A stretch of DNA of 38,828 bases from Chitinophagaceae bacterium (GTDB lineage Bacteria > Bacteroidota > Bacteroidia > Chitinophagales > Chitinophagaceae), in assembly GCA_020848815.1 (NCBI GenBank), contig JADLHL010000207.1, positions 1 to 38,828 of the forward strand, in the 5' to 3' direction. Of this stretch, positions 10,033 through 22,560 are shown piece after piece (the stretch's first letter is position 1; each line of letters opens with the position of its first letter). The notes beneath the pieces are model-generated. The model saw nothing but the letters and a program-made list of their open reading frames with translations, was not told the origin of the DNA and made no database searches. The translations under genes were made by a program, and so were the position numbers.

Positions 10033-10121
10033 ATTTACTAAAGTGCTTCATTAAAACTACACCCCAATACCCACTCAACGGTATATGGAAAGAAAATAAG
10101 CCCAATCTTTTTGCTACAGGC

Positions 10122-10146
10122 GTACAACTTAATTCAATAGTTGTAC
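10122..10146. promoter_or_regulatory. palindromic candidate operator between the unknown gene and susC
   Basis: GTACAACT (10122-10129) and AGTTGTAC (10139-10146) form a perfect 8-bp inverted repeat with a 9-base AT-rich centre. The size and shape fit a dimeric helix-turn-helix regulator site. It lies 90 bases upstream of the divergent start at 10032 and 144 bases upstream of susC. Confidence 0.5.
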
Positions 10147-10194
10147 TGCTGTTTCATGGGGCTGTTATGGAATCATTACTGAATTGTAAACCGT

Positions 10195-10250
10195 ACGATT
10201 CGGTAACATTCCATTGATGTTTTGTTAATGCCGGCGCAACGATTCGGTAA
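10195..10250 (+). promoter_or_regulatory. 12-bp direct repeat (candidate activator sites) upstream of susC
   Basis: ACGATTCGGTAA occurs exactly twice, at 10195-10206 and 10239-10250, 44 bases apart (about four helical turns, so on the same DNA face). The second copy covers the expected -33 position of the TAGGTTTG promoter, where no TTG is present. It is itself bracketed by CCGGCG (10231-10236) and CGCCGG (10255-10260). This suits an activator-dependent promoter. Confidence 0.55.
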
Positions 10251-10261
10251 TACACGCCGGA

Positions 10262-10269
10262 TAGGTTTG
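10262..10269 (+). promoter_or_regulatory. candidate -7 box of susC
   Basis: TAGGTTTG matches TAnnTTTG and ends 20 bases before the susC ATG at 10290. There is no TTG at the normal -33 distance, and the direct-repeat copy at 10239-10250 lies there instead. Confidence 0.5.
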
Positions 10270-10289
10270 CCCGCAAATTAAAACTGTTT

Positions 10290-13200
10290 ATGAAGCAGCG
10301 ACTACTCCCTTGGCAATGGGTTTTCTCCATTGTTTTTTTAAGTGTGTTATTTACGGAAAATGCAGTGCTGGCACAGGATACCGGCATTCGTGGTAAGGTT
10401 ATTGATGCCAATGCCAATGCACCATTGGCAGGCGTAACCGTTAAGTTATTATCGAAAGGAAGTGTAGTAATCACTTCTAACGAAGGTGAGTTTATGGTGA
10501 ACGCCAAAAAAGGTGATCGGCTGGAGATTAGCTATGTTGGTTATGCTACCGAAACGGTACAAGTTGGTACCATTACCTATCTCGAAATTGACCTCAGTGC
10601 CAATGCTTCGCAATTGGGCGAAGTAGTAGTAACGGCTTTGGGCATTCGCAAAGAGAAAAAGAAACTCGGCTACGCCATACAGGATGTGAAAGGTGAAGAC
10701 CTGACTGTAGCCCGTGAAACCAACGTAGTAAACCAACTGGCGGGTAAAGTAGCCGGTGTAACGGTTGTTGGTAGTGCATCAGGTGTTGGTGGTTCTTCTC
10801 GTGTTACTATTCGTGGAGAACGCTCCGTTGACCTCAATAAAAACCAACCGCTGTATGTAATAGATGGTGTGCCCGTGAGCAACGCTATTACCGGTGCCAG
10901 CGGCCGCAATAATTTGGAAGTAGATTTTGGTAACGGTGCCGGATTTATCAACCCCGATGATATTGAAAGCATGAGTGTACTCAAAGGACCTGCTGCATCT
11001 GCTTTGTATGGTTCACGTGCTGCCAATGGTGTGATTTTGATTAAAACAAAATCAGGTAAAAAATCAAAAGGCATTGGCGTAGAAATCAATACCAACGCCA
11101 CTTTCGAAACGGCTTTGAAATTGCCGGAATATCAAAAGGTATATGGCCAGGGCAATGGCAACGGTGGCGATTTTGCTTTTGTAAACGGTGGTGGTGCAGG
11201 CCTTACCGATGGAACGGATGAAGGTTGGGGCCCCGCTTTTCGTGGTCAGTTGTATCCGCAGTTCAACTCGCCCCGCACCTTGAATGGTCAGCCCATTGAT
11301 TTTTTTGGTGGTGATTTGAATGCACCTGCAGGTAGTGTCATTACACCAACACTGTGGGAACCCGATATCGACAACCTGAAAAACTTTTTGGAAACAGGTA
11401 AAACTTTCACCAACAACGTAGCCTTGGTAGGTGGTAATAAAAACGGCGATTTCCGTTTGAGCTATACCAACCTCGATCAAAAAGGCATGGTGCCCAACAC
11501 CGATTTGAAAAGAAATACGGTGTCGTTTTCCGGAGGTTACAACTTCAACGATAAGTTGTCGGCTAAAGCGTTCATCAGTTACATCAAAAGCGAAAGCGGC
11601 AACCGTCCTTCTATCAGTTATGGTACCGAAAGTTTGATGTATCTCTTCAACTGTTGGCTACCTGCTTCGGTAAAAGTGTCTGACATGAAACGCTTATGGA
11701 TGAAGGGTGCAGACGGCCTGCGTCAGTACAGCTGGAACTACAACTACCACGACAACCCGTACCTCACCGTGTATGAAAATACCAATGGTCAATACTATGA
11801 TCGCATTATTGGTAATGCATCATTGAAATATGATTTTACGAAGTGGTTGAACCTACAGGTTCGTGCTGCAACAGATTGGAGCAACGAACGTCGGGAATAC
11901 CGCCGCGGCTTTAGCACACAGCGTTTTCCATTTGGCCAGTACCGTGAGGTAAACATCATCAACGAAGAACGCAATGCCGATTTCTTGTTGAACTTCAACA
12001 AAGAACTGGGAACTGATTTTGTAGTAACCGCCAACGCTGGTGGCAACCAAATGCGCCAGAGCAGCCGCTTCAACGAAACCGTTGCCGGCCAGCTGAACAT
12101 ACCCGGTATTTACAATCTTACCAACAGCCGTATTGCATTAGAAACTGCACAACGTAATGTAGCCAAGCGTATCAACAGTTTTTACGGTTCAGCCGGTGTG
12201 GCATATCAAAACAAAATCTTCCTCGACTTTACTGGTCGCAACGACTGGAGTAGTGCCCTCACTTTGCCCGAAGATTTGAAATCGTTTGGCAACGAAGACA
12301 ATTCTTATTTCTATTCATCTGTAGCCCTTAGTGCCATCGTTAGTGATATGGTGAAGCTGCCCAAAGTCATCAGCTTTGCAAAAGTTCGTGGCAGCTTTGC
12401 ACAAGTGGGTAACGATACAGATCCTTTCACGTTCACACAATCATTTAACCCCAGCACACCTTACGGTTCAGCACAAGTGTACGGCGAAACAGATCGCCTC
12501 ACCAACCTGAACCTGAAGCCTGAAATCAGTTCGGCCTGGGAATTGGGTGCAGATGTTCGTTTCCTCAACAACCGCATTGGTGTAGATGTAACGTACTACA
12601 CCAGTACAACTAAAAACCAGATCCTGAATATTCCTTTGTCGCTGACGAGTGGATACAATAGCCGCAGCATCAACGCTGGTAAAATCAAGAACTGGGGTTG
12701 GGAAGCCATGCTGAATTTCCAAACCATTAAGAAAAAAGATTTTACCTGGACAACGGATATCAATTTCAGCGCCAACAGAAGTGAAGTAATTGAACTGCGT
12801 GATGGCCTCACCAACTTTGTAATGGCCAGCCGCAGCGTAAGCGTAGAAGCCCGTGTAGGCGAACGCATGGGTGATTTGTACGGCATCGGTTTTGCCCGTG
12901 TACAAAACAGTGATAAGAATGCTCCTTACTACGATGCTACGGGTCAGTATGTTGGTCAAATGGTATTTGATGCCAACGGCCGTCCTGTAAGAACGACCAA
13001 CCGCATTAAGCTCGGCAACTACAATCCTGATTGGTTGATGGGCATCAGCAACAGCTTTAATTACAAAGGTGTACGCCTCAGCTTCCTCTTCGACATCCGC
13101 AGTGGTGGCGAAATCTACAGCCACACACAAACCGTAGGTCGTGAAGGCGGTATCATTATGGAAACACTCGAAGGTCGTGCCGATGGTTACGATTTGAGCA

Positions 13201-13586
13201 AGCCCGGTAACGGTGTAGTTGGTCAGGGTGTAGTGTTTGTAAATGGAGTGCCTAGTCCCAATACCAAAAAAGTAAGTGCCCGTGAATGGCATACTGCCTG
13301 GACTGGTGGTCGTGGTATTGCTGAAGGTGTGATGTACGATGCCTCTTTTGTAAAGCTCCGTGAGTTACAAATTGGCTACAACATTCCCGATAAAGTGTGG
13401 GGCAAACTGCCATTCCGTGGTGTAGCCGTTTCACTGGTAGGCCGCAACCTGTTTGTATGGGACAATGTACCTCACGTAGATCCTGAAAACATGAGCTACT
13501 CAGGCGGTACTGCATTGCCTGGTATCGAGTTCATGGCTATTCCTTCGGCCCGCAGCTATGGTTTTAACCTGAGTTTGAAACTCTAA
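10290..13586 (+). CDS. SusC/RagA-family TonB-linked outer membrane transporter
   Basis: The 1098-residue protein imports a ligand across the outer membrane together with its SusD lid. Visible parts in order are a signal peptide (about 1-29, ending 'NAVLAQ'), a carboxypeptidase-regulatory-like domain (about 33-112, 'IRGKVIDANANAPLAGVTV'), and the plug with 'GQ'-less 'YVIDGVPVSNAI' and the SusC signature 'VLKGPAASALYGSRAANGV'. A long beta-barrel ends in 'ARSYGFNLSLKL'. The length is normal for the family. The susD partner follows directly. A promoter box and direct repeats precede it. Substrate is not readable from the sequence, but the downstream enzymes are phosphoesterases rather than glycosidases, which suggests an organophosphorus or phospholipid-type ligand (inference). 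Confidence 0.95.
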   Translation: MKQRLLPWQWVFSIVFLSVLFTENAVLAQDTGIRGKVIDANANAPLAGVTVKLLSKGSVVITSNEGEFMVNAKKGDRLEISYVGYATETVQVGTITYLEIDLSANASQLGEVVVTALGIRKEKKKLGYAIQDVKGEDLTVARETNVVNQLAGKVAGVTVVGSASGVGGSSRVTIRGERSVDLNKNQPLYVIDGVPVSNAITGASGRNNLEVDFGNGAGFINPDDIESMSVLKGPAASALYGSRAANGVILIKTKSGKKSKGIGVEINTNATFETALKLPEYQKVYGQGNGNGGDFAFVNGGGAGLTDGTDEGWGPAFRGQLYPQFNSPRTLNGQPIDFFGGDLNAPAGSVITPTLWEPDIDNLKNFLETGKTFTNNVALVGGNKNGDFRLSYTNLDQKGMVPNTDLKRNTVSFSGGYNFNDKLSAKAFISYIKSESGNRPSISYGTESLMYLFNCWLPASVKVSDMKRLWMKGADGLRQYSWNYNYHDNPYLTVYENTNGQYYDRIIGNASLKYDFTKWLNLQVRAATDWSNERREYRRGFSTQRFPFGQYREVNIINEERNADFLLNFNKELGTDFVVTANAGGNQMRQSSRFNETVAGQLNIPGIYNLTNSRIALETAQRNVAKRINSFYGSAGVAYQNKIFLDFTGRNDWSSALTLPEDLKSFGNEDNSYFYSSVALSAIVSDMVKLPKVISFAKVRGSFAQVGNDTDPFTFTQSFNPSTPYGSAQVYGETDRLTNLNLKPEISSAWELGADVRFLNNRIGVDVTYYTSTTKNQILNIPLSLTSGYNSRSINAGKIKNWGWEAMLNFQTIKKKDFTWTTDINFSANRSEVIELRDGLTNFVMASRSVSVEARVGERMGDLYGIGFARVQNSDKNAPYYDATGQYVGQMVFDANGRPVRTTNRIKLGNYNPDWLMGISNSFNYKGVRLSFLFDIRSGGEIYSHTQTVGREGGIIMETLEGRADGYDLSKPGNGVVGQGVVFVNGVPSPNTKKVSAREWHTAWTGGRGIAEGVMYDASFVKLRELQIGYNIPDKVWGKLPFRGVAVSLVGRNLFVWDNVPHVDPENMSYSGGTALPGIEFMAIPSARSYGFNLSLKL

Positions 13587-13652
13587 CCGCATTACCACGC
13601 AAGCAGATTGATGAAGACATTTATTTCTAACAAGAAGATCAACCCAACGAAT

Positions 13653-15179
13653 ATGAAACTTGTACAAATGATGACTGCAGTAGCCTTGGTAGCGGCCACG
13701 CTTACCGGTTGCGATAAAGATTTCCGCAGCGTCAATACCGATACCAATGTGCCTACACAAGTAACGCCAGACTTGCTGTTGAGTGGCGTTATCCGCAACA
13801 TGATGAACCAGCAAGTGAGTGATGCATGGGGCATTGGCAACATTGTGGTGCAGTACCATGCTAAAATTCAGTTTGTAAACGAAGACCGCTATCTCTGGAA
13901 CGAACAGAACGGTGTTTGGAACAGTGTGTATGGCAACTACCGCAACCTGCAAAACATTTTGACACAGGTAAGTGGCGATAATAAAAATGCCTACCACGGT
14001 GTTGCACTGATTTTGAAATCGTGGATGTTCAGCCTGGTAGCCGATTCGTATGGTGATGCACCGTACAGTGAAGCTGGCAAAGCCAAAACGGATGGTTTGT
14101 ATCAGCCCAAATATGATAAGCAGGAAGACATTTACACCGGTATTTTGGCTGACCTGAAAAAGGCCAACGAAATACTGGCTGCCAGCACCAATACCATCTC
14201 TGGCGATTTGTTGTATGGTGGTGGTGCAGCTGCCAATTTGAAATGGCGCAAACTCGCCAACTCACTGCGATTGCGTTTGCTGATGCGGTTGTCGAAAAAG
14301 AAAAACGTGAATGCAGATATGCAGGCGATTCTCAACGACGCCAATACGTATCCTGTATTTATGAGCAATGCCGATAATGCAGAAATGAAATACCTCGCTG
14401 CAGCACCCAACCAATGGCCGCTGTATGGTACCCGTGTAGGTAGCTTCGATGAGTTCCGGGTTAGCAAAACCTTGTCCGATCGTTTGTCTTCAATGGCTGA
14501 TCCACGTTTGGCTGTCTTTGGTCGTCCTTCGCAAAAATCAGTAGCAGCAGGTACGCCGGTCATTGAAGGTATTCCCAACGGTTTGGGTGATGTACAAGCA
14601 TTGAACTACAATGGCGGGCCGCAAGGCGTATCAAGAGTAGGCTACACATTTGCTTGTCTGGTTTGCAACGATAACGGACAGGCAGTGCCCGATCCTGCAG
14701 CGGCACGTGCCGTACTCATGAGCTATGCCGAGTTGCAATTCATTTTGGCAGAAGCCAGAGAGAAAGGCATGATTACAAATGGTGATGCTGCAACTTTTTA
14801 TCGCAATGGTATCGATGCCAACATGGCTTACTGGAAGTCGTTGGTGCCTGTGCAGTACAACATCAACCTCGATGTACCTGCCAGCTACTACACACAAGCC
14901 GCGGTTGCCTACACTGGCACCAGTGCTGAAAAGTTGGATAAAATTTATTTGCAAAAATGGGTGGCCTTGTACTTCACCGGTTTGGAAGGATGGCACGATT
15001 GGAAGCGTACCGGCAAACCAGAAATTGTACCCGGCGCCAACAACCTGAACAATAACAAAGTGCCTGTGCGTTTCATTTACCCGCAAAGTGAGCAATCACT
15101 CAATGGCACTTTCCGTACCGAAGCGGTAACTCGTCAGGGTGCTGATGATATCAACACCCGCACCTGGATTGCACAATAA
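13653..15179 (+). CDS. SusD/RagB-family nutrient-binding lipoprotein
   Basis: The 508-residue surface lipoprotein is the ligand-binding partner of the SusC just upstream. I chose the Met at 13653 because it gives a normal lipoprotein signal, 'MTAVALVAATLTGC', with the lipidated Cys at residue 20. The listed start at 13608 adds 15 polar residues before it. After the Cys, 'NVPTQVTPDLLLSGVIRNMM' and the helical repeats ('NLKWRKLANSLRLRLLMRLS', 'YAELQFILAEAREKGMI', 'KIYLQKWVALYFTGLEGWHDW') match the SusD-like group that binds diverse nutrients, not only starch. It is followed by a strong terminator, separating the transporter pair from the enzymes. Confidence 0.93.
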   Translation: MKLVQMMTAVALVAATLTGCDKDFRSVNTDTNVPTQVTPDLLLSGVIRNMMNQQVSDAWGIGNIVVQYHAKIQFVNEDRYLWNEQNGVWNSVYGNYRNLQNILTQVSGDNKNAYHGVALILKSWMFSLVADSYGDAPYSEAGKAKTDGLYQPKYDKQEDIYTGILADLKKANEILAASTNTISGDLLYGGGAAANLKWRKLANSLRLRLLMRLSKKKNVNADMQAILNDANTYPVFMSNADNAEMKYLAAAPNQWPLYGTRVGSFDEFRVSKTLSDRLSSMADPRLAVFGRPSQKSVAAGTPVIEGIPNGLGDVQALNYNGGPQGVSRVGYTFACLVCNDNGQAVPDPAAARAVLMSYAELQFILAEAREKGMITNGDAATFYRNGIDANMAYWKSLVPVQYNINLDVPASYYTQAAVAYTGTSAEKLDKIYLQKWVALYFTGLEGWHDWKRTGKPEIVPGANNLNNNKVPVRFIYPQSEQSLNGTFRTEAVTRQGADDINTRTWIAQ

Positions 15180-15248: not shown

Positions 15249-17951
15249 ATGTTTAGAATTCTTGCCTCCGTTGTATTGCTTGCTGTGTGTTTGCAGGCAA
15301 TGGCACAATCCAATCCATTTATCTTGTCGGTGCCCGGTGTACAGCAATACGCCAACATAGATACAGCTGGTATCTCTGTGTTGCCCAGTGGTCGTTATGT
15401 AACGCCCGTGGGACAAACCATTCGCATTACGCATGATCCTTTTGGCATGGCTGTTTCGCCCGATGGCAAAACAGTCATCACGTTGCACAACGGTGTGTTC
15501 AGCATCATTGATGTTGCTTCGATGCAAGCCACCCGTGTGCCCGATTATGCTGGTAACATTCCATCGCCGTTGAGCAATGGTTCGTTTTTAGGTGTGGCTT
15601 TTCATCCCACACAAAGCCTTGTGTATTTGAGCGGTGGCGATAACGGCGCTGTCATTGTGTACGATTACAAACGCCTGCAAAAAGTAGATTCTATTTCACT
15701 GAATGGCACATTTGGCGGAAAACTTTTCGATGATAGTTTTACCAGCGATTTAATTTTTAATACTGCCAACAATGAACTGCTGGTATTGGACCGTGGCAAT
15801 TTTCGTTTGGTAAGAATCAATTTGACCAATAAGAAAATCACAGCATCTATCGAAACCGGCCGTCAACCTTTTGGCCTGGCCATTTCGCCCGATAACAAAA
15901 CAGTGCTGGTAGCCAATGTGGGCATGTATAGTTATCCGTTGGTAAAAGGTGCTACACCCGACAATGCCAACGAAAAAATGATTGACTATCATCCATACGG
16001 CCACAACACCAAAGCTTCAAAAGAAGGAACAGAAATTGATGGCAAAGAAATTCCCGGCGTAGGCGATCCCAATGCGCCGGAGGCCATGAGTGTGTACAGC
16101 ATCAATCTGGCTACCAATAAAGTAACACATCGCTTAAAGACCGGTCACCTGATTGGTGAACTGGTGGAAGATGCGGAAGTGATTGGCGGTGCCAGTCCCA
16201 ACTCCATTGTGATGGGCAAACAGTTTGCTTATGTAACCAATGCTACCAACGACAACATTTCGGTGATTGATTACCGCAAGGGAAAAATTATTGACCATAT
16301 CGATATTAAAGTAGATCCGCTGTTGGATAAATACCGTGGCCTGTTGCCCTTCGGCATTACCATGAGTGCCGATGAAAAAACATTGTATGTAGCACTGCTT
16401 GGTTTTAATGCTGTTGCTGTAATAGACATAGCCAGCAAAACCACCAAGGGTTTGCTGCCCACAGGTTGGGGCCCGGCACGGGTACTGCTAAGCAGAGAGC
16501 AGCAATACCTGTACGTGATTTCTTGCCGTGGCTATGGTGCCGGACCAAATGGTGGTAAAAACTTTGTGGCACCGCCACAGGGTACTTACGTGGGTGATAT
16601 TCAGCTGGCTACTTTTCAAAAAATTGCCATGCCTACTGCGGCGGAATTGAAAGACTACACTACAAAAGCTATTCAGAATACCTATCAGAAAATTCCGGTA
16701 AGTCAGGTGGCGAATACACCGCTGCCTGCATTGCCCGGATTGGGTGCTACGCCCATCAAGCACATTGTTTTCATCAGTAAAGAAAACCGCACCTATGATG
16801 AAGTGTTTGGCCAAATGAATAGGGCAAAAGGCGATGCCACACTGGCCCGTTTTGGAACAGGTGTCAACATCTTTACCAAAACAGATTCGTTGTACAATGT
16901 AGATGTAATGCCCAATCACAAACGCATTGGCAGCCAGTTTGCATTCAGCGATAATTTTTATTGCGACAGCGATGCCTCCATTCATGGACATCATTGGATG
17001 GTGGGTGTAATTCCCAATGAATGGGTGGAAACCAACTCGAGTGTGAGCAAAACAGCGAAGTTATTTTCGAATGCACCGGGCCGTCGTTTCCCTGGTAGTA
17101 CCGGAAGTATTGACCCCGAAGATTATGCAGAAATTGGCGGCTTGTGGGAAGCATTGGAACGCAAAGGCATTTCGTTTTACAACTTTGGCCAGGCCAATGA
17201 AACAGCTCATGTGCGGGAAGAGTGGAACGACACTGCTACCGGCGCTGCACACTTAGTAATGGTGCCCATGCAAAACGCCTTGTGGACAAGAACCTCACAC
17301 AACTTTGCCGGCTACAATACCAACATTCCCGATCAGTTTCGGATGAAACAATTTGAAGAAGAGTTCACCAAAAAATGGTTGAATGGAAAAGACAGTTTGC
17401 CCCAATTGCTCACGGTGATGTTGCCCAACGATCATGGTGCAAGACCAAGACCCGAAGATGGCTATCCGTTTACGCATTCGTACATGGCCGACAATGATTT
17501 GGCCTTGGGCAGAATGCTGCATTTTTTGAGCAGAACACCGTACTGGAAAAACATGCTGGTGATTGTAACGGAAGATGATCCGCAAGGTGGTGTAGACCAC
17601 ATAGATGGCCATCGTAGTATTCTCATGATGGCAGGTCCTTATGTAAAGAAAAACCATGTGTCGCATACGCATGCCAACTTCGGTACCATCCTCAAAACCA
17701 TGTACAATATTTTGGGCGTGCCGTATGTCAATCAGTATGATGTAACGGCCAGTTTGCTCAGCGATTTCTTTACCAACACACCCGATTTTTCTACCTACGA
17801 TTTTGTATTGCCCGATAAGCGGGTATTCGATTGGGACAAGGCCATGGAGAAATATAAACAGCCCATCGACTGGCGCAACATTCAGCAAGGACCAAAGATG
17901 GATGATGCCGGTGAACAACGGGTGGAGCATTATAAAACAGGTGGCCAATAA
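15249..17951 (+). CDS. secreted YncE-like beta-propeller / phosphoesterase fusion (first copy)
   Basis: The 900-residue exported protein has a signal peptide (about 1-20, 'LLAVCLQAMAQ') and two modules. Residues about 45-440 are a beta-propeller with repeated 'SPDGKTV', 'SPDNKTVLVANVG' and 'SADEKTLYVALLG' blades. Residues about 503-850 are an alkaline-phosphatase-like phosphoesterase of the phospholipase C/acid phosphatase type. They contain 'KENRTYDEVFG' (511-521), 'SDNFYCDSDASIHGHHW' (567-583), 'LPNDHG' (725-730) and 'TEDDPQGGVDHIDGHR' (774-789), which supply the expected metal-binding and nucleophile-region residues. It would hydrolyse a phosphate mono- or diester outside the cytoplasm. 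The propeller may bind substrate or a partner. Its position right after SusCD ties it to uptake of the product or substrate. A TAAATTTC sequence just before the ATG could be a weak internal promoter. Confidence 0.9.
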   Translation: MFRILASVVLLAVCLQAMAQSNPFILSVPGVQQYANIDTAGISVLPSGRYVTPVGQTIRITHDPFGMAVSPDGKTVITLHNGVFSIIDVASMQATRVPDYAGNIPSPLSNGSFLGVAFHPTQSLVYLSGGDNGAVIVYDYKRLQKVDSISLNGTFGGKLFDDSFTSDLIFNTANNELLVLDRGNFRLVRINLTNKKITASIETGRQPFGLAISPDNKTVLVANVGMYSYPLVKGATPDNANEKMIDYHPYGHNTKASKEGTEIDGKEIPGVGDPNAPEAMSVYSINLATNKVTHRLKTGHLIGELVEDAEVIGGASPNSIVMGKQFAYVTNATNDNISVIDYRKGKIIDHIDIKVDPLLDKYRGLLPFGITMSADEKTLYVALLGFNAVAVIDIASKTTKGLLPTGWGPARVLLSREQQYLYVISCRGYGAGPNGGKNFVAPPQGTYVGDIQLATFQKIAMPTAAELKDYTTKAIQNTYQKIPVSQVANTPLPALPGLGATPIKHIVFISKENRTYDEVFGQMNRAKGDATLARFGTGVNIFTKTDSLYNVDVMPNHKRIGSQFAFSDNFYCDSDASIHGHHWMVGVIPNEWVETNSSVSKTAKLFSNAPGRRFPGSTGSIDPEDYAEIGGLWEALERKGISFYNFGQANETAHVREEWNDTATGAAHLVMVPMQNALWTRTSHNFAGYNTNIPDQFRMKQFEEEFTKKWLNGKDSLPQLLTVMLPNDHGARPRPEDGYPFTHSYMADNDLALGRMLHFLSRTPYWKNMLVIVTEDDPQGGVDHIDGHRSILMMAGPYVKKNHVSHTHANFGTILKTMYNILGVPYVNQYDVTASLLSDFFTNTPDFSTYDFVLPDKRVFDWDKAMEKYKQPIDWRNIQQGPKMDDAGEQRVEHYKTGGQ

Positions 17952-17979
17952 TTTTCGGGAAACATACAATTGCTGTGAT

Positions 17980-20463
17980 ATGAAACATTTACGATTTGCC
18001 GCATTGCTGTTGGGCTTACTGCCGGGTATTACCGGGGTGGTACAGGCACAAACAAAAAAAGTAACCTTACCCAACGGCTGGTCGTTGACACCTGCGGGCA
18101 AGCAACTGCCACTCGGCGATTTGCCGTTGAACGTGGTGGTTTCGCCCGACAAGAAATTACTTGCCGTTACCAACAACGGACAAAGTGTGCAATCCATTCA
18201 GCTCATTGATGCGGTGAATGATAAAGTGCTGCACAGTGTAGAAATTCTAAAGAGTTGGTATGGCTTACACTTTAGTGCCGATGGCAAAAAGTTGTATGCA
18301 TCGGGTGGCAATGACAACCGCATTGTGCAGTACAATATTGTGAACAAGCAACTGCAGTTGACTGATAGTTTCTTGCTGGGTAAAAAATGGCCTGAAAAAA
18401 TTTCACCTGCCGGTTTCGATTTGGATGAAGCCAAACAATTGATGTATGTGGTCACCAAAGAAAACGATGCCTTGTACATTGTTGATTTAGCCACGAAGAA
18501 AATGGAGCAGTTCCCATTGGGTGCCAAAGCGTACACTTGTTTGCTGAGCCCCGATAGAAAGCAACTCTACATTTCATTGTGGGGAGCAGACAGGTTGTTG
18601 ATTTGGGATACCCAAACCAAAACAGAAATCAGTCGTATTGCCGTAGGTGATAACCCCAATGAATTGCTGCTGACAAAAGATGGTCAGTATTTGTATGTGG
18701 CCAATGCCAATGACAACAGTGTGGCTGTAATTAAAACAGCAACAGCTGCTATTGTGGAAGTGTTGAACACCGCTTTGTATCCCAATGCACCCAACGGTTC
18801 AACTACCAATGGCATGGCACTGAATGAAACTGAAACTACATTGTATGTAGCCAATGCCGACAACAATTGTCTGGCGGTTTTTGATGTAGAAGAAAAAGGA
18901 GAGAGCCGCAGCAAAGGGTTTATACCAACGGGTTGGTATCCTACCAGTGTGAAAGTAGTAGGCAAGAAAATTTTCGTCAGCAATGGCAAGGGCGTTACAT
19001 CACTCGCCAATCCTTACGGGCCCAATCCAGCAGTGCGTAAGCAGGCCGTTACTTATCAGGCAGGCGACGCCAAAAAGCCACAGGAAGTGCAATACATTGG
19101 CGGTTTGTTCAAGGGTACGCTCAGTATCATTCCTGAGCCCGATGCACAGCAATTGAAAGTGATGGCCAAACAGGTGTACGACAACACACCTTATACCAAA
19201 CTGAAAGAATTGATGGCTGCTGGTGAGCGTGGTAATCCCATTCCTATGAAGGTGGGCGATGCATCACCCATCAAGCATGTGTTTTACATCATCAAAGAAA
19301 ACAGAACCTACGACCAGGTGTTGGGCGATTTACCGCAAGGCAATGGTGATACCTCGCTGGTGTTGTTTGGCAGAAAAATTACCCCTAACCAACATGCGTT
19401 AGCTGAGCAGTTTGTGTTGCTCGATAACTTTTATGTAGATGCTGAAGTGAGTGCCGATGGGCACAACTGGAGCACGGCTGCGTATGCCAATGATTACACT
19501 GAAAAAAACTGGCCCACCAGCTATGGCGGCCGCGGCGGTACCTATGATTTTGAAGGACAGAAAACCATTGCGCATCCACGTGGTGGTTTCATTTGGGATC
19601 ATTGTTTACGGGCCGGCATCAGTTACCGCACCTATGGTGAGTTTGCCGATGATTATGTGGCAAATATTCCTGCGTTGGTTGGTCGCATTTGTCCATACTT
19701 TACCAGTTGGGATGAAAGCGTAAGAGATACCAGCAGGTTTTATCAGTGGCGCCGAGATTTTGATTCATTGGTAGCGGCCAATGCATTGCCGCAGTTGAAT
19801 ACACTTCGTTTCATCAATGATCACACAGAAGGATTGCGGGTAGGAAGACCAACACCTTTTGCACATGTGGCCGACAATGATTATGCTGTTGGTTTGTTCA
19901 TTGAGCATTTAAGTAAAAGCCCGGTGTGGGAAAAATCGGTGGTATTTATATTAGAAGATGATGCGCAAAATGGCCCCGACCATGTGGATGCCCACCGCTC
20001 TACGGCTTATGTGGTGGGCCCTCACGTAAAACGGAGTTATGTAGATCATACCATGTATTCTACTTCCTCTATGTTGCGAACCATCGAACTTATCTTGGGT
20101 CTGCCGCCGATGAGTCAGTACGATGCAGCTGCCATGCCCATGTGGCGTTGTTTTACACCGCAAGCCAATACAACTGCATTCACAGCCATTGCACCCAAAA
20201 TTGATTTGAATGAGAAAAATCAGAAAGTAAATGCCCTTTCTAAACTGAGTGAAACATTTGATTTTTCGAAAGAAGATATGGCGCCGGATGTGGCATTCAG
20301 CGAAGTGATTTGGAAAGCGGTGAAGGGAGAACACAGTGTGATGCCTGCACCACGTCGTAGTGCATTTGTATGGAGCGATGAAGATGAAGAAGAAAAGGAG
20401 AAAGAAGCGGCTAATTCAAAGCGACCATTGCCGGCCAAAGCTTCTGGTAAAACCAAACGATAA
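17980..20463 (+). CDS. secreted YncE-like beta-propeller / phosphoesterase fusion (second copy)
   Basis: The 827-residue product is a paralogue of the preceding gene with the same order: signal peptide (about 1-23, ending 'VVQAQ'), propeller (about 45-350, 'SPDKKLLAV', 'KDGQYLYVANANDNSVAV', 'LNETETTLYVANADNN') and phosphoesterase (about 430-715). Catalytic motifs are 'KENRTYDQVLGD' (439-450), 'LDNFYVDAEVSADGHNW' (481-497), 'INDHTEG' (612-618) and 'LEDDAQNGPDHVDAHR' (658-673). The start at 17980 gives a proper signal peptide, while the listed ORF start at 17803 lies inside the previous gene. The two copies differ strongly outside the motifs, so this is an old duplication with likely different substrates. 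The last ~29 residues are an unusual acidic then basic tail. Only 3 bases separate it from the TonB receptor gene. Confidence 0.9.
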   Translation: MKHLRFAALLLGLLPGITGVVQAQTKKVTLPNGWSLTPAGKQLPLGDLPLNVVVSPDKKLLAVTNNGQSVQSIQLIDAVNDKVLHSVEILKSWYGLHFSADGKKLYASGGNDNRIVQYNIVNKQLQLTDSFLLGKKWPEKISPAGFDLDEAKQLMYVVTKENDALYIVDLATKKMEQFPLGAKAYTCLLSPDRKQLYISLWGADRLLIWDTQTKTEISRIAVGDNPNELLLTKDGQYLYVANANDNSVAVIKTATAAIVEVLNTALYPNAPNGSTTNGMALNETETTLYVANADNNCLAVFDVEEKGESRSKGFIPTGWYPTSVKVVGKKIFVSNGKGVTSLANPYGPNPAVRKQAVTYQAGDAKKPQEVQYIGGLFKGTLSIIPEPDAQQLKVMAKQVYDNTPYTKLKELMAAGERGNPIPMKVGDASPIKHVFYIIKENRTYDQVLGDLPQGNGDTSLVLFGRKITPNQHALAEQFVLLDNFYVDAEVSADGHNWSTAAYANDYTEKNWPTSYGGRGGTYDFEGQKTIAHPRGGFIWDHCLRAGISYRTYGEFADDYVANIPALVGRICPYFTSWDESVRDTSRFYQWRRDFDSLVAANALPQLNTLRFINDHTEGLRVGRPTPFAHVADNDYAVGLFIEHLSKSPVWEKSVVFILEDDAQNGPDHVDAHRSTAYVVGPHVKRSYVDHTMYSTSSMLRTIELILGLPPMSQYDAAAMPMWRCFTPQANTTAFTAIAPKIDLNEKNQKVNALSKLSETFDFSKEDMAPDVAFSEVIWKAVKGEHSVMPAPRRSAFVWSDEDEEEKEKEAANSKRPLPAKASGKTKR

Positions 20464-20466
20464 TTC

Positions 20467-22560
20467 ATGCAGCGAACAGGATTAATGATCATAGCAGCAT
20501 TGGCTGCACAAACGAGTGTTGCACAACAAACCGTTGATGCAAAAGATTCCATATACAGCACACTGCAACAAGTGGTGGTAAGTGCCACGCACAAAGCCCG
20601 TGAACGCAGCCAAACACCATACAGCATTGAAGTGCTGCAACAACCAGCACAACAAATGCAGCAGGCCCGTACTACACCAGAAGCATTGGCCTACGTACCA
20701 GGTGTATTTGTGCAGAAGACCAATCATGGCGGCGGCTCACCTTTTTTACGTGGCCTCACGGGCAATCAAACACTCATCATGATTGATGGCATTCGTTTCA
20801 ACAATGCTACGTTTCGTTTTGGTCCTAACCAATACCCCAATCTGATTGATGCATTCACCATTGATAGGATTGAAGTGTTGAAAGGAAGTGGGAGTGTGCA
20901 ATACGGCAGCGATGCGATGGGCGGTGTGATTCATGTGTTGACAAAAACACAAGACTATACCGATAAACCAACATGGCATGCAAACGCAGCCGGGCGTATT
21001 ACCACGCAAGCCATGGAATATACGGGCCGTGCTTCCGCAGCTTATAGCAGTAATCATTTTATGATGCAAGCCGGCTATACGTTTCGGCAGTTTGGCGACC
21101 TCGTTGGTGGCGATACAACAGGAGTACAACGTCCTTCGGGTTATGATGAAAGAGATTGGGATGTAAAAATGGCGATGCAACTCTCTGATAAAACAGAATT
21201 GATTGTGTCGAGTCAGCAGGTAGTACAGCGTAATGTGCCTTTGTACCATCGGGTGAAGCTGGAAAATTTTGCTTACTACCGCTTTTCACCACAGGTGATG
21301 CAGGTTTCGTATGCGAGGCTCAACTGGAAGCCGGGCAAGCGTTTGGTAAATGAAGCCAGTTTTACAGCCTTGTATAAACACAGCAAAGAAGGCCGCCAAT
21401 ACAACCGCAATGGAAATGCCAATTTTTACGATGAATTAGACAAGGTGAATAGTGTAGGTGCTACGGCTGAAGTGTACAGCAGTTTTAACCAGTGGTGGAC
21501 GGCCAACAGTGGCATAGAATGGTACAGCGATAAAGTACGCAGCAGCAGAATACGAACTAACGGTAGCAATGTTTTTAATGAACGGGGCTTATATCCGGAT
21601 GCTTCCGTGCAGGATAATTTTTCTGCTTACAGCCTGCATCATTTTCGTTGGAAAAAATGGGTAGCAGAAGCCGGACTTCGCTACAATCATTTCATCAATA
21701 GTTTGCCGGGGACCATTACACAATTGCCCGGTCAGCCAAAAGAAAATGCGGTGAAGTTGACGCCGGCTTCGCTGGTGGGTAATGCTTCCTTGTTGTACAA
21801 TATCAGTTCGAAGCATATTGTGTATGCCTCATTCAGCAATGGCTATCGTGCACCGGGTTTGGATGATATGGGCACATTGGGCCTTGTAGATTTTCGCTAC
21901 GAAGTACCCGCCTACGATTTGAAGCCCGAGAAAAACAACAACGTAGAATTCGGGTATCGCTTTGCAGGCAGGCGTTTGCAGGCATCGGCTACTTTCTTTT
22001 ACATGCACATCAATGATCTCATCAGCAGGGTACGCAGGGGAACCGATTCCATACAAGGATATCCTGTGTATATCAAAACCAACGATCAGCAAGCATTTGT
22101 ACGTGGCTTTGAAATCAGTGCACAATATCAAATTACCAAACAACTACGGGCACAGAGTTATGTAGCGTATCAGTACGGGCAAAACCTCACCCGCAATGAA
22201 CCTATGCGTCGCATTCCACCCATGAATGGATTGAGTAGTTTGCTGTATCAGGCATCCAAATGGTATGTAGGATTGGAGCATCAATGGGCTGCAGCGCAAC
22301 AACGATTGGCACAGGGCGATAAAGATGATAACCGCATTCCGAAAGGGGGCACACCCGCCTGGATGCTGTGGAACATGCATGCCGGATATCAAACCCAATC
22401 GTTTATTGTGAAGCTGTCGCTGCACAATATCAGCAACGAAGATTACCGTACCCACGGCAGCGGCATCAACGGTATGGGCCGGGCATTGGTGGCGGGAGTG
22501 AGTTACAATTTTTACGGAAAACTGTGGAAAACCTGTACCAAAAAATCAGGCGGTTGGTAA
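20467..22560 (+). CDS. TonB-dependent receptor (CirA/FepA-like architecture)
   Basis: The 697-residue protein has a signal peptide (about 1-19, 'LMIIAALAAQTSVAQ') and then goes straight to the plug without the SusC-type N-terminal domain. The plug is visible as 'LQQVVVSATHKARERSQTPY', 'PGVFVQKTNHGGGSPFLRGL', 'IMIDGIRFNNATF' and 'RIEVLKGSGSVQYGSDAMGG'. The barrel includes 'FSNGYRAPGLDDMG' and 'LKPEKNNNVEFGYRF' and ends 'ALVAGVSYNFYGKLWKTCTKKSGGW', a C-terminus with about ten residues beyond the usual terminal aromatic. It starts 3 bases after the second phosphoesterase and is almost certainly in the same operon. The ligand could be a metal complex, an organophosphate or a cofactor needed by the phosphoesterases. 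This cannot be decided from sequence. Confidence 0.9.
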   Translation: MQRTGLMIIAALAAQTSVAQQTVDAKDSIYSTLQQVVVSATHKARERSQTPYSIEVLQQPAQQMQQARTTPEALAYVPGVFVQKTNHGGGSPFLRGLTGNQTLIMIDGIRFNNATFRFGPNQYPNLIDAFTIDRIEVLKGSGSVQYGSDAMGGVIHVLTKTQDYTDKPTWHANAAGRITTQAMEYTGRASAAYSSNHFMMQAGYTFRQFGDLVGGDTTGVQRPSGYDERDWDVKMAMQLSDKTELIVSSQQVVQRNVPLYHRVKLENFAYYRFSPQVMQVSYARLNWKPGKRLVNEASFTALYKHSKEGRQYNRNGNANFYDELDKVNSVGATAEVYSSFNQWWTANSGIEWYSDKVRSSRIRTNGSNVFNERGLYPDASVQDNFSAYSLHHFRWKKWVAEAGLRYNHFINSLPGTITQLPGQPKENAVKLTPASLVGNASLLYNISSKHIVYASFSNGYRAPGLDDMGTLGLVDFRYEVPAYDLKPEKNNNVEFGYRFAGRRLQASATFFYMHINDLISRVRRGTDSIQGYPVYIKTNDQQAFVRGFEISAQYQITKQLRAQSYVAYQYGQNLTRNEPMRRIPPMNGLSSLLYQASKWYVGLEHQWAAAQQRLAQGDKDDNRIPKGGTPAWMLWNMHAGYQTQSFIVKLSLHNISNEDYRTHGSGINGMGRALVAGVSYNFYGKLWKTCTKKSGGW

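Follow-up and report, generated by a model that had tools for sequence, protein, structure and literature searches.

A SusCD pair in a genome is normally taken for a sugar importer. Regulators of the PhoB type act on direct repeats by a mechanism that is textbook knowledge, and the repeats of PhoP in Bacillus subtilis are of the TTAACA type. The PHO box consists of two 11-nt direct repeat units, with GTTCACC as its core in Streptomyces (PMC4415409), and mycobacterial PhoP, which belongs to the OmpR family, binds 7-bp direct repeats with 4-bp spacers (PMC4832192). In Flavobacterium johnsoniae, phosphate depletion is reported to induce SusCD 'PUS' loci (phosphate utilisation systems, PusCD), the TonB receptor of the PhoBR cluster and PlcP, as well as GH28/polygalacturonase-like lipoproteins and a beta-propeller putative phosphatase (PMC8115612). 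For Bacteroides fragilis, in vitro binding of PhoB to the pst promoter has been reported, in sections that give no consensus (PMC3547664), and we found no published consensus for a Bacteroidota Pho box in the literature searched.

Here we analyse a susC promoter in a stretch of 38,828 nucleotides from a Chitinophagaceae bacterium (the window). Upstream of susC lies an array of 11-bp direct repeats that is, judging from its sequence, very probably a Pho box where PhoB~P binds to activate a SusCD operon for phosphate scavenging. The computed results are the array itself, its geometry and conservation, and its occurrence both in front of the PhoB candidate and at further phosphate genes.

Results

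The genes from susC to the second TonB-dependent receptor are consecutive and separated by short gaps (Table 1), so that, as in a PUS, a SusCD pair is co-located with phosphoesterases. The open reading frame of phosphoesterase 2 (17803-20463) overlaps that of phosphoesterase 1 by ~150 nt, and its true start is probably downstream of the listed one. In nearly all orthologous loci susD adjoins susC, and the PF04185 phosphoesterases are kept in only about a quarter of them; among the loci lacking PF04185, a few have another phosphatase or metallophosphoesterase downstream, and some have susCD alone and nothing recognizable besides. Among relatives, the 214-aa gene on the other side of the promoter is found divergent to susC only in the closest one (G005, whose SusC is 97% identical) and is not beside susC in a further genome, G008.

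Table 1. Positions in the window of the genes and promoter elements discussed
Feature	Position	Strand	Remark
Divergent gene, 214 aa	9388..10032	-	Signal-like N terminus; without family match
Palindrome GTACAACT-N9-AGTTGTAC	10122..10146		Single genomic copy; left arm lost in G005
Second array, three half-sites, GTTTACAATTCAGTAATGATTCCATAAC	10163..10191	-	Genome-wide match of model R1; kept in G005
First exact 12-mer ACGATTCGGTAA, outermost half-site	10195..10206	+	GGTAA core alone kept in G005
Putative Pho-box array facing susC	10196..10250	+	Five 11-bp units, core G[T/G]TAA[C/T]
Second exact 12-mer ACGATTCGGTAA, promoter-proximal half-site at the -33 position	10239..10250	+	Identical in G005 and G008
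-7 element (Bacteroidota type) TAGGTTTG	10262..10269	+	11 bp after the last GGTAA
SusC/RagA-family TonB-dependent transporter, PusC-like	10290..13586	+	TIGR04056, 653 bits
SusD-like lipoprotein	13608..15179	+	PF12771, PF12741
Beta-propeller + PF04185 phosphoesterase 1	15249..17951	+	
Beta-propeller + PF04185 phosphoesterase 2	17803..20463	+	Listed start TTG
Second TonB-dependent receptor of the operon	20467..22560	+	Homologue follows in many phosphoesterase-bearing loci

The intergenic gap between the divergent gene and susC (10033-10289) is 257 nt long. An earlier note on this DNA had placed in it a pair of exact 12-mers, a palindrome, a CCGGCG/CGCCGG bracket and a -7 box, all of which are present where it located them, and had read the 12-mers as two activator sites. 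Written as 11-mers, positions 10196-10269 are CGATTCGGTAA, CATTCCATTGA, TGTTTTGTTAA, TGCCGGCGCAA and CGATTCGGTAA again, followed by TACACGCCGGA and TAGGTTTG. The two 12-mers, 44 bp apart (4 x 11 bp), are thus the outer members, units 1 and 5, of an array in strict 11-bp register, in which unit 3 has the variant core GTTAA while the sequence of units 2 and 4 is degenerate, and the two proposed sites become about five half-sites. As in a Pho box, tandem direct repeats with ~7 conserved bases and an 11-bp period occupy the -35/-33 position at a fixed distance from the -10/-7 box. The proposal of an activator-type promoter holds up well, in that a helically phased direct repeat stands in for the -33 element ahead of the TANNTTTG -7 box and its register is widely conserved. 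Most close orthologues have TAGGTTTG, TAGTTTTG or TAATTTTG as the -7 box with the register unchanged.

When the 257-nt gap was shuffled 3000 times with its dinucleotides preserved, 8 shuffles contained an exact 12-mer repeat, as did 2 of 295 ordinary stretches of equal length from the window, and the pair is therefore improbable by chance, as had been claimed; in the 4.08-Mb genome, ACGATTCGGTAA occurs twice, both times at susC and nowhere else. The palindrome is unremarkable by the same measure, because a perfect palindrome with 8-bp arms was found in 309 of the 3000 shuffles (~10%) and in 36 of the 295 ordinary stretches (12%). This bears on the full model of the earlier note, in which two activator sites are accompanied by a separate palindromic operator for a second regulator. 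The palindrome is perfect over its 8-bp arms (86% over 14) and stands upstream of the array, as that model would have it; however, it falls within the chance rate, the genome contains a single occurrence of it, and its left arm is lost in the relative with 97% identity although the array is kept there. We consider the model very unlikely, and the palindrome is probably without function. Nor does the bracket around the second 12-mer persist, its left arm reading CCACCA in the same relative.

This closest relative retains both the array and the -7 box; altered in it are the left arms of the palindrome and of the bracket and the outer part of the first 12-mer copy, which reads TCATTCTGGTAA. Alignment of relatives thus gave a divided answer on the repeats: the literal identity of the 12-mers is not conserved, while the GGTAA/GTTAA core at 11-bp spacing is. 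Orthologous promoters of the same genus and of the same family retain the register together with the -7 box. On a larger scale, a scan of genome contigs yielded 80 SusC relatives from Chitinophagaceae, Dyadobacter, Spirosoma, Cyclobacteriaceae and others, and after dereplication 53 of 61 orthologous susC promoters contain half-site pairs at 11 bp, where 13.3 are expected (z 13.6); spacings of 22, 33 and 44 bp are likewise enriched in these 61 promoters. Conservation of the 11-bp register at susC orthologues therefore spans Chitinophagaceae and Cytophagales.

It might still be argued that the repeats fell by chance within an ordinary promoter, given that 2 of 295 ordinary stretches have an exact 12-mer repeat and that reading a whole genome selects such cases. 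Conservation of the 11-bp register far exceeds expectation, however, and already refutes this argument, to which we give virtually no credence. An RNA attenuator has been weighed as well, in which TTACTGAATTGT and ACGATTCGGTAA (10176-10206) would form a hairpin and the second 12-mer would serve as an alternative partner. The arms do pair over 12 positions when G-U pairs are allowed, but they lie upstream of the -7 box, so that a susC transcript starting from the predicted promoter would not include them; an Rfam search returned no family above threshold, and the orthologues retain the tandem direct repeats, not the hairpin. We regard an attenuator as highly improbable.

The register was also modelled directly. 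Of the periods tried for a tied three-unit model, 11 gave the best likelihood, with TGTTAA(C/T) as the half-site. In a three-fold held-out test, with loci of mostly ~21 kb ranked on both strands, the top match of the 11-bp model fell within the susC promoter for 19 of 39 held-out loci, and that of the 10- or 12-bp models for 5 of 39. When the model was trained on other genera and without phoB, the susC array came first in the whole 38.8-kb window (match from 10201). This tied 11-bp model took over from a position matrix made from phoB promoters only, which was too AT-rich and had the susC promoter as its best match for 8 of 70 loci, with 0.6 expected. The pattern GKTAA-N11-TANNTTTG was also tried across the genus and was dropped, its matches being mostly due to chance (a tRNA promoter, coding sequence).

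Five full-length response regulators of the OmpR type are encoded in the genome. None of the genome's proteins matches PhoB better than the one on contig C283, whose gene has a PhoR/PnpS-like kinase gene after it; it scores under the curated NCBIfam cut-offs for PhoB, with 236 against 296.2 bits (TIGR02154), and with 203 bits against the Bacteroides PhoB model NF053854 (cut-off 270) it is again the best match of the genome. Its sequence suggests a PhoB-like protein. Its promoter carries CGTTAACAATTTGGTAAACA, an 11-bp repeat as at susC, and most phoB orthologues also have the repeat in their promoters, as TTAACAAT-N4-TAAT. The susC-trained model made without the window's genus or phoB has its best match at the promoter of this PhoB candidate, and in 17 of 30 phoB-orthologue loci, that of the genome itself among them, it gives the phoB promoter site the first rank; with this model, nothing comparable was found at the promoters of the other four OmpR-type regulators. 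This evidence from phoB promoters is independent of the conservation at susC. On the same contig (L082 312-345), an array-like site that scores well, TGTTTACGATTTGTTAGCCTTGTCTTTAC, stands before the gene of a PAP2-family phosphatase adjoining phoBR.

The candidate regulon was mapped with sequence-model searches and in chosen genome stretches. A search of three genomes with model R1 returned 15 matches; the training set of the model included the susC site of the window and the phoB site, and the remaining sites are outside it. Single matches have E-values of about 0.03 to 8, and because these are weak the genome-wide matches count as a set. In the genome itself and in the closest relative, the matches precede susC (both arrays in the former), phoB and the TonB-dependent receptor of the PhoBR cluster. 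Another match falls between a DUF47-PHO4 (PitA-like) module and a GH28 protein; the PHO4 phosphate transporter and the DUF47 (PhoU_div) gene beside this array are on contig C139 of the genome itself (L219 737-2704). It is possible that the PHO4-DUF47 module is an alternative phosphate-sensing partner of PhoR; no phoU was found in the genome. In G008 (L256 3384-3450), an array precedes the gene of a PlcP-like calcineurin-like metallophosphoesterase, followed by a glycosyltransferase, a pair that is likely a lipid-remodelling operon; the array before the PlcP-like gene is known for G008 only, and no match to the protein was found in the window's own genome. A further match in G008 precedes another susC-like gene, whose counterpart in the window's own genome (C203, L258 ~2105-2157) likewise has an array upstream, a strong one of five 11-bp units, TTCATGAAGCGTTAACAAACATTTTACAGTTACATAACC. 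Within this genome the motif thus recurs before phoB and at additional phosphate genes, as expected of a Pho box. Among relatives, pstS was tried too: TIGR02136 matches are nearly all below the cut-off, most being no true PstS and having no top-ranked site, and the one good match (L225) has one.

These sites help to weigh a further reading, namely that the tandem site serves another winged-helix regulator of the OmpR family, not PhoB, and that the operon answers another signal. In its favour, other members of the OmpR family, mycobacterial PhoP for example, also bind 7-bp direct repeats with 4-bp spacers (PMC4832192), and the regulator on C283 scores under the equivalog cut-off for PhoB. Yet among the five full-length OmpR-type regulators it is only the PhoB-like one whose own promoter has the motif, and further sites accompany genes for phosphate transport, a PlcP-like protein, the PhoBR cluster and phosphoesterases. 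We therefore judge another regulator unlikely and a Pho box the far better account.

Discussion

We suggest the following course of events for the Pho box at susC. Under phosphate limitation, a PhoR-type kinase would phosphorylate the OmpR/PhoB-type regulator encoded on C283, and PhoB~P would bind as dimers, arranged head-to-tail along the 11-bp direct repeats with their G[T/G]TAA[C/T] cores. With the last half-site at -33, PhoB would recruit the sigma-A holoenzyme to TAGGTTTG, in a promoter that has no -33 element. The activated operon (susC, susD, phosphoesterases 1 and 2 and the TonB receptor) may then import and cleave organic phosphate. In this scheme we infer the identity of the binding protein, its phosphorylation, the induction at low phosphate and the substrate. 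The leftward array (10163-10191) probably acts likewise on the divergent gene. This array faces the 214-aa gene, and both are present in the closest relative; no clear -7 box was found close to it.

It would be tempting to go further and propose both that G[T/G]TAA[C/T]-N6, repeated n times, is an undescribed Pho box valid across Bacteroidota and that, in lineages lacking phoU, PhoR-PhoB receives its phosphate signal through a box-bearing Pit (PHO4)-DUF47 module and not through Pst-PhoU. This combined idea is speculative, and we think it rather doubtful.

As far as its sequence goes, an operon resembling one for sugar uptake is most likely switched on by phosphate starvation. If the Pho box is recognizable, SusCD loci that scavenge organic phosphate could be marked from sequence in Chitinophagaceae and Cytophagales, and the motif could be used for mapping Pho regulons across Bacteroidota. 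We see the useful part of the work in a consensus for Bacteroidota and in its application to SusCD loci.

Among known systems, the Pho box of E. coli is similar in that 11-bp head-to-tail direct repeats replace the upstream promoter element, and the spacing is equal, with TTGTCA, 11 nt and TATAGT at phoA and GGTAA, 11 nt and TAGGTTTG at susC. It differs in its core (TGTCA there, G[T/G]TAA[C/T] here), in having two units where about five are found here, and in its TATAAT box, which corresponds to the TANNTTTG -7 box of this promoter. PHO boxes of Streptomyces share the 11-bp units and the multi-unit arrays, and their core GTTCACC is near the GTTCAC/GTTAAC variants found here, whereas the PhoP boxes of Streptomyces and Bacillus differ from the susC array in phylum, sigma factor and target genes. 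The PUS loci of F. johnsoniae resemble this operon in combining SusCD with phosphoesterases, low-phosphate control being a prediction here (PMC8115612); their PusD proteins have the domains pf07980/pf14322 in contrast to PF12771/PF12741 here, and the enzymes of the present locus differ from theirs in joining PF04185 with a beta-propeller.
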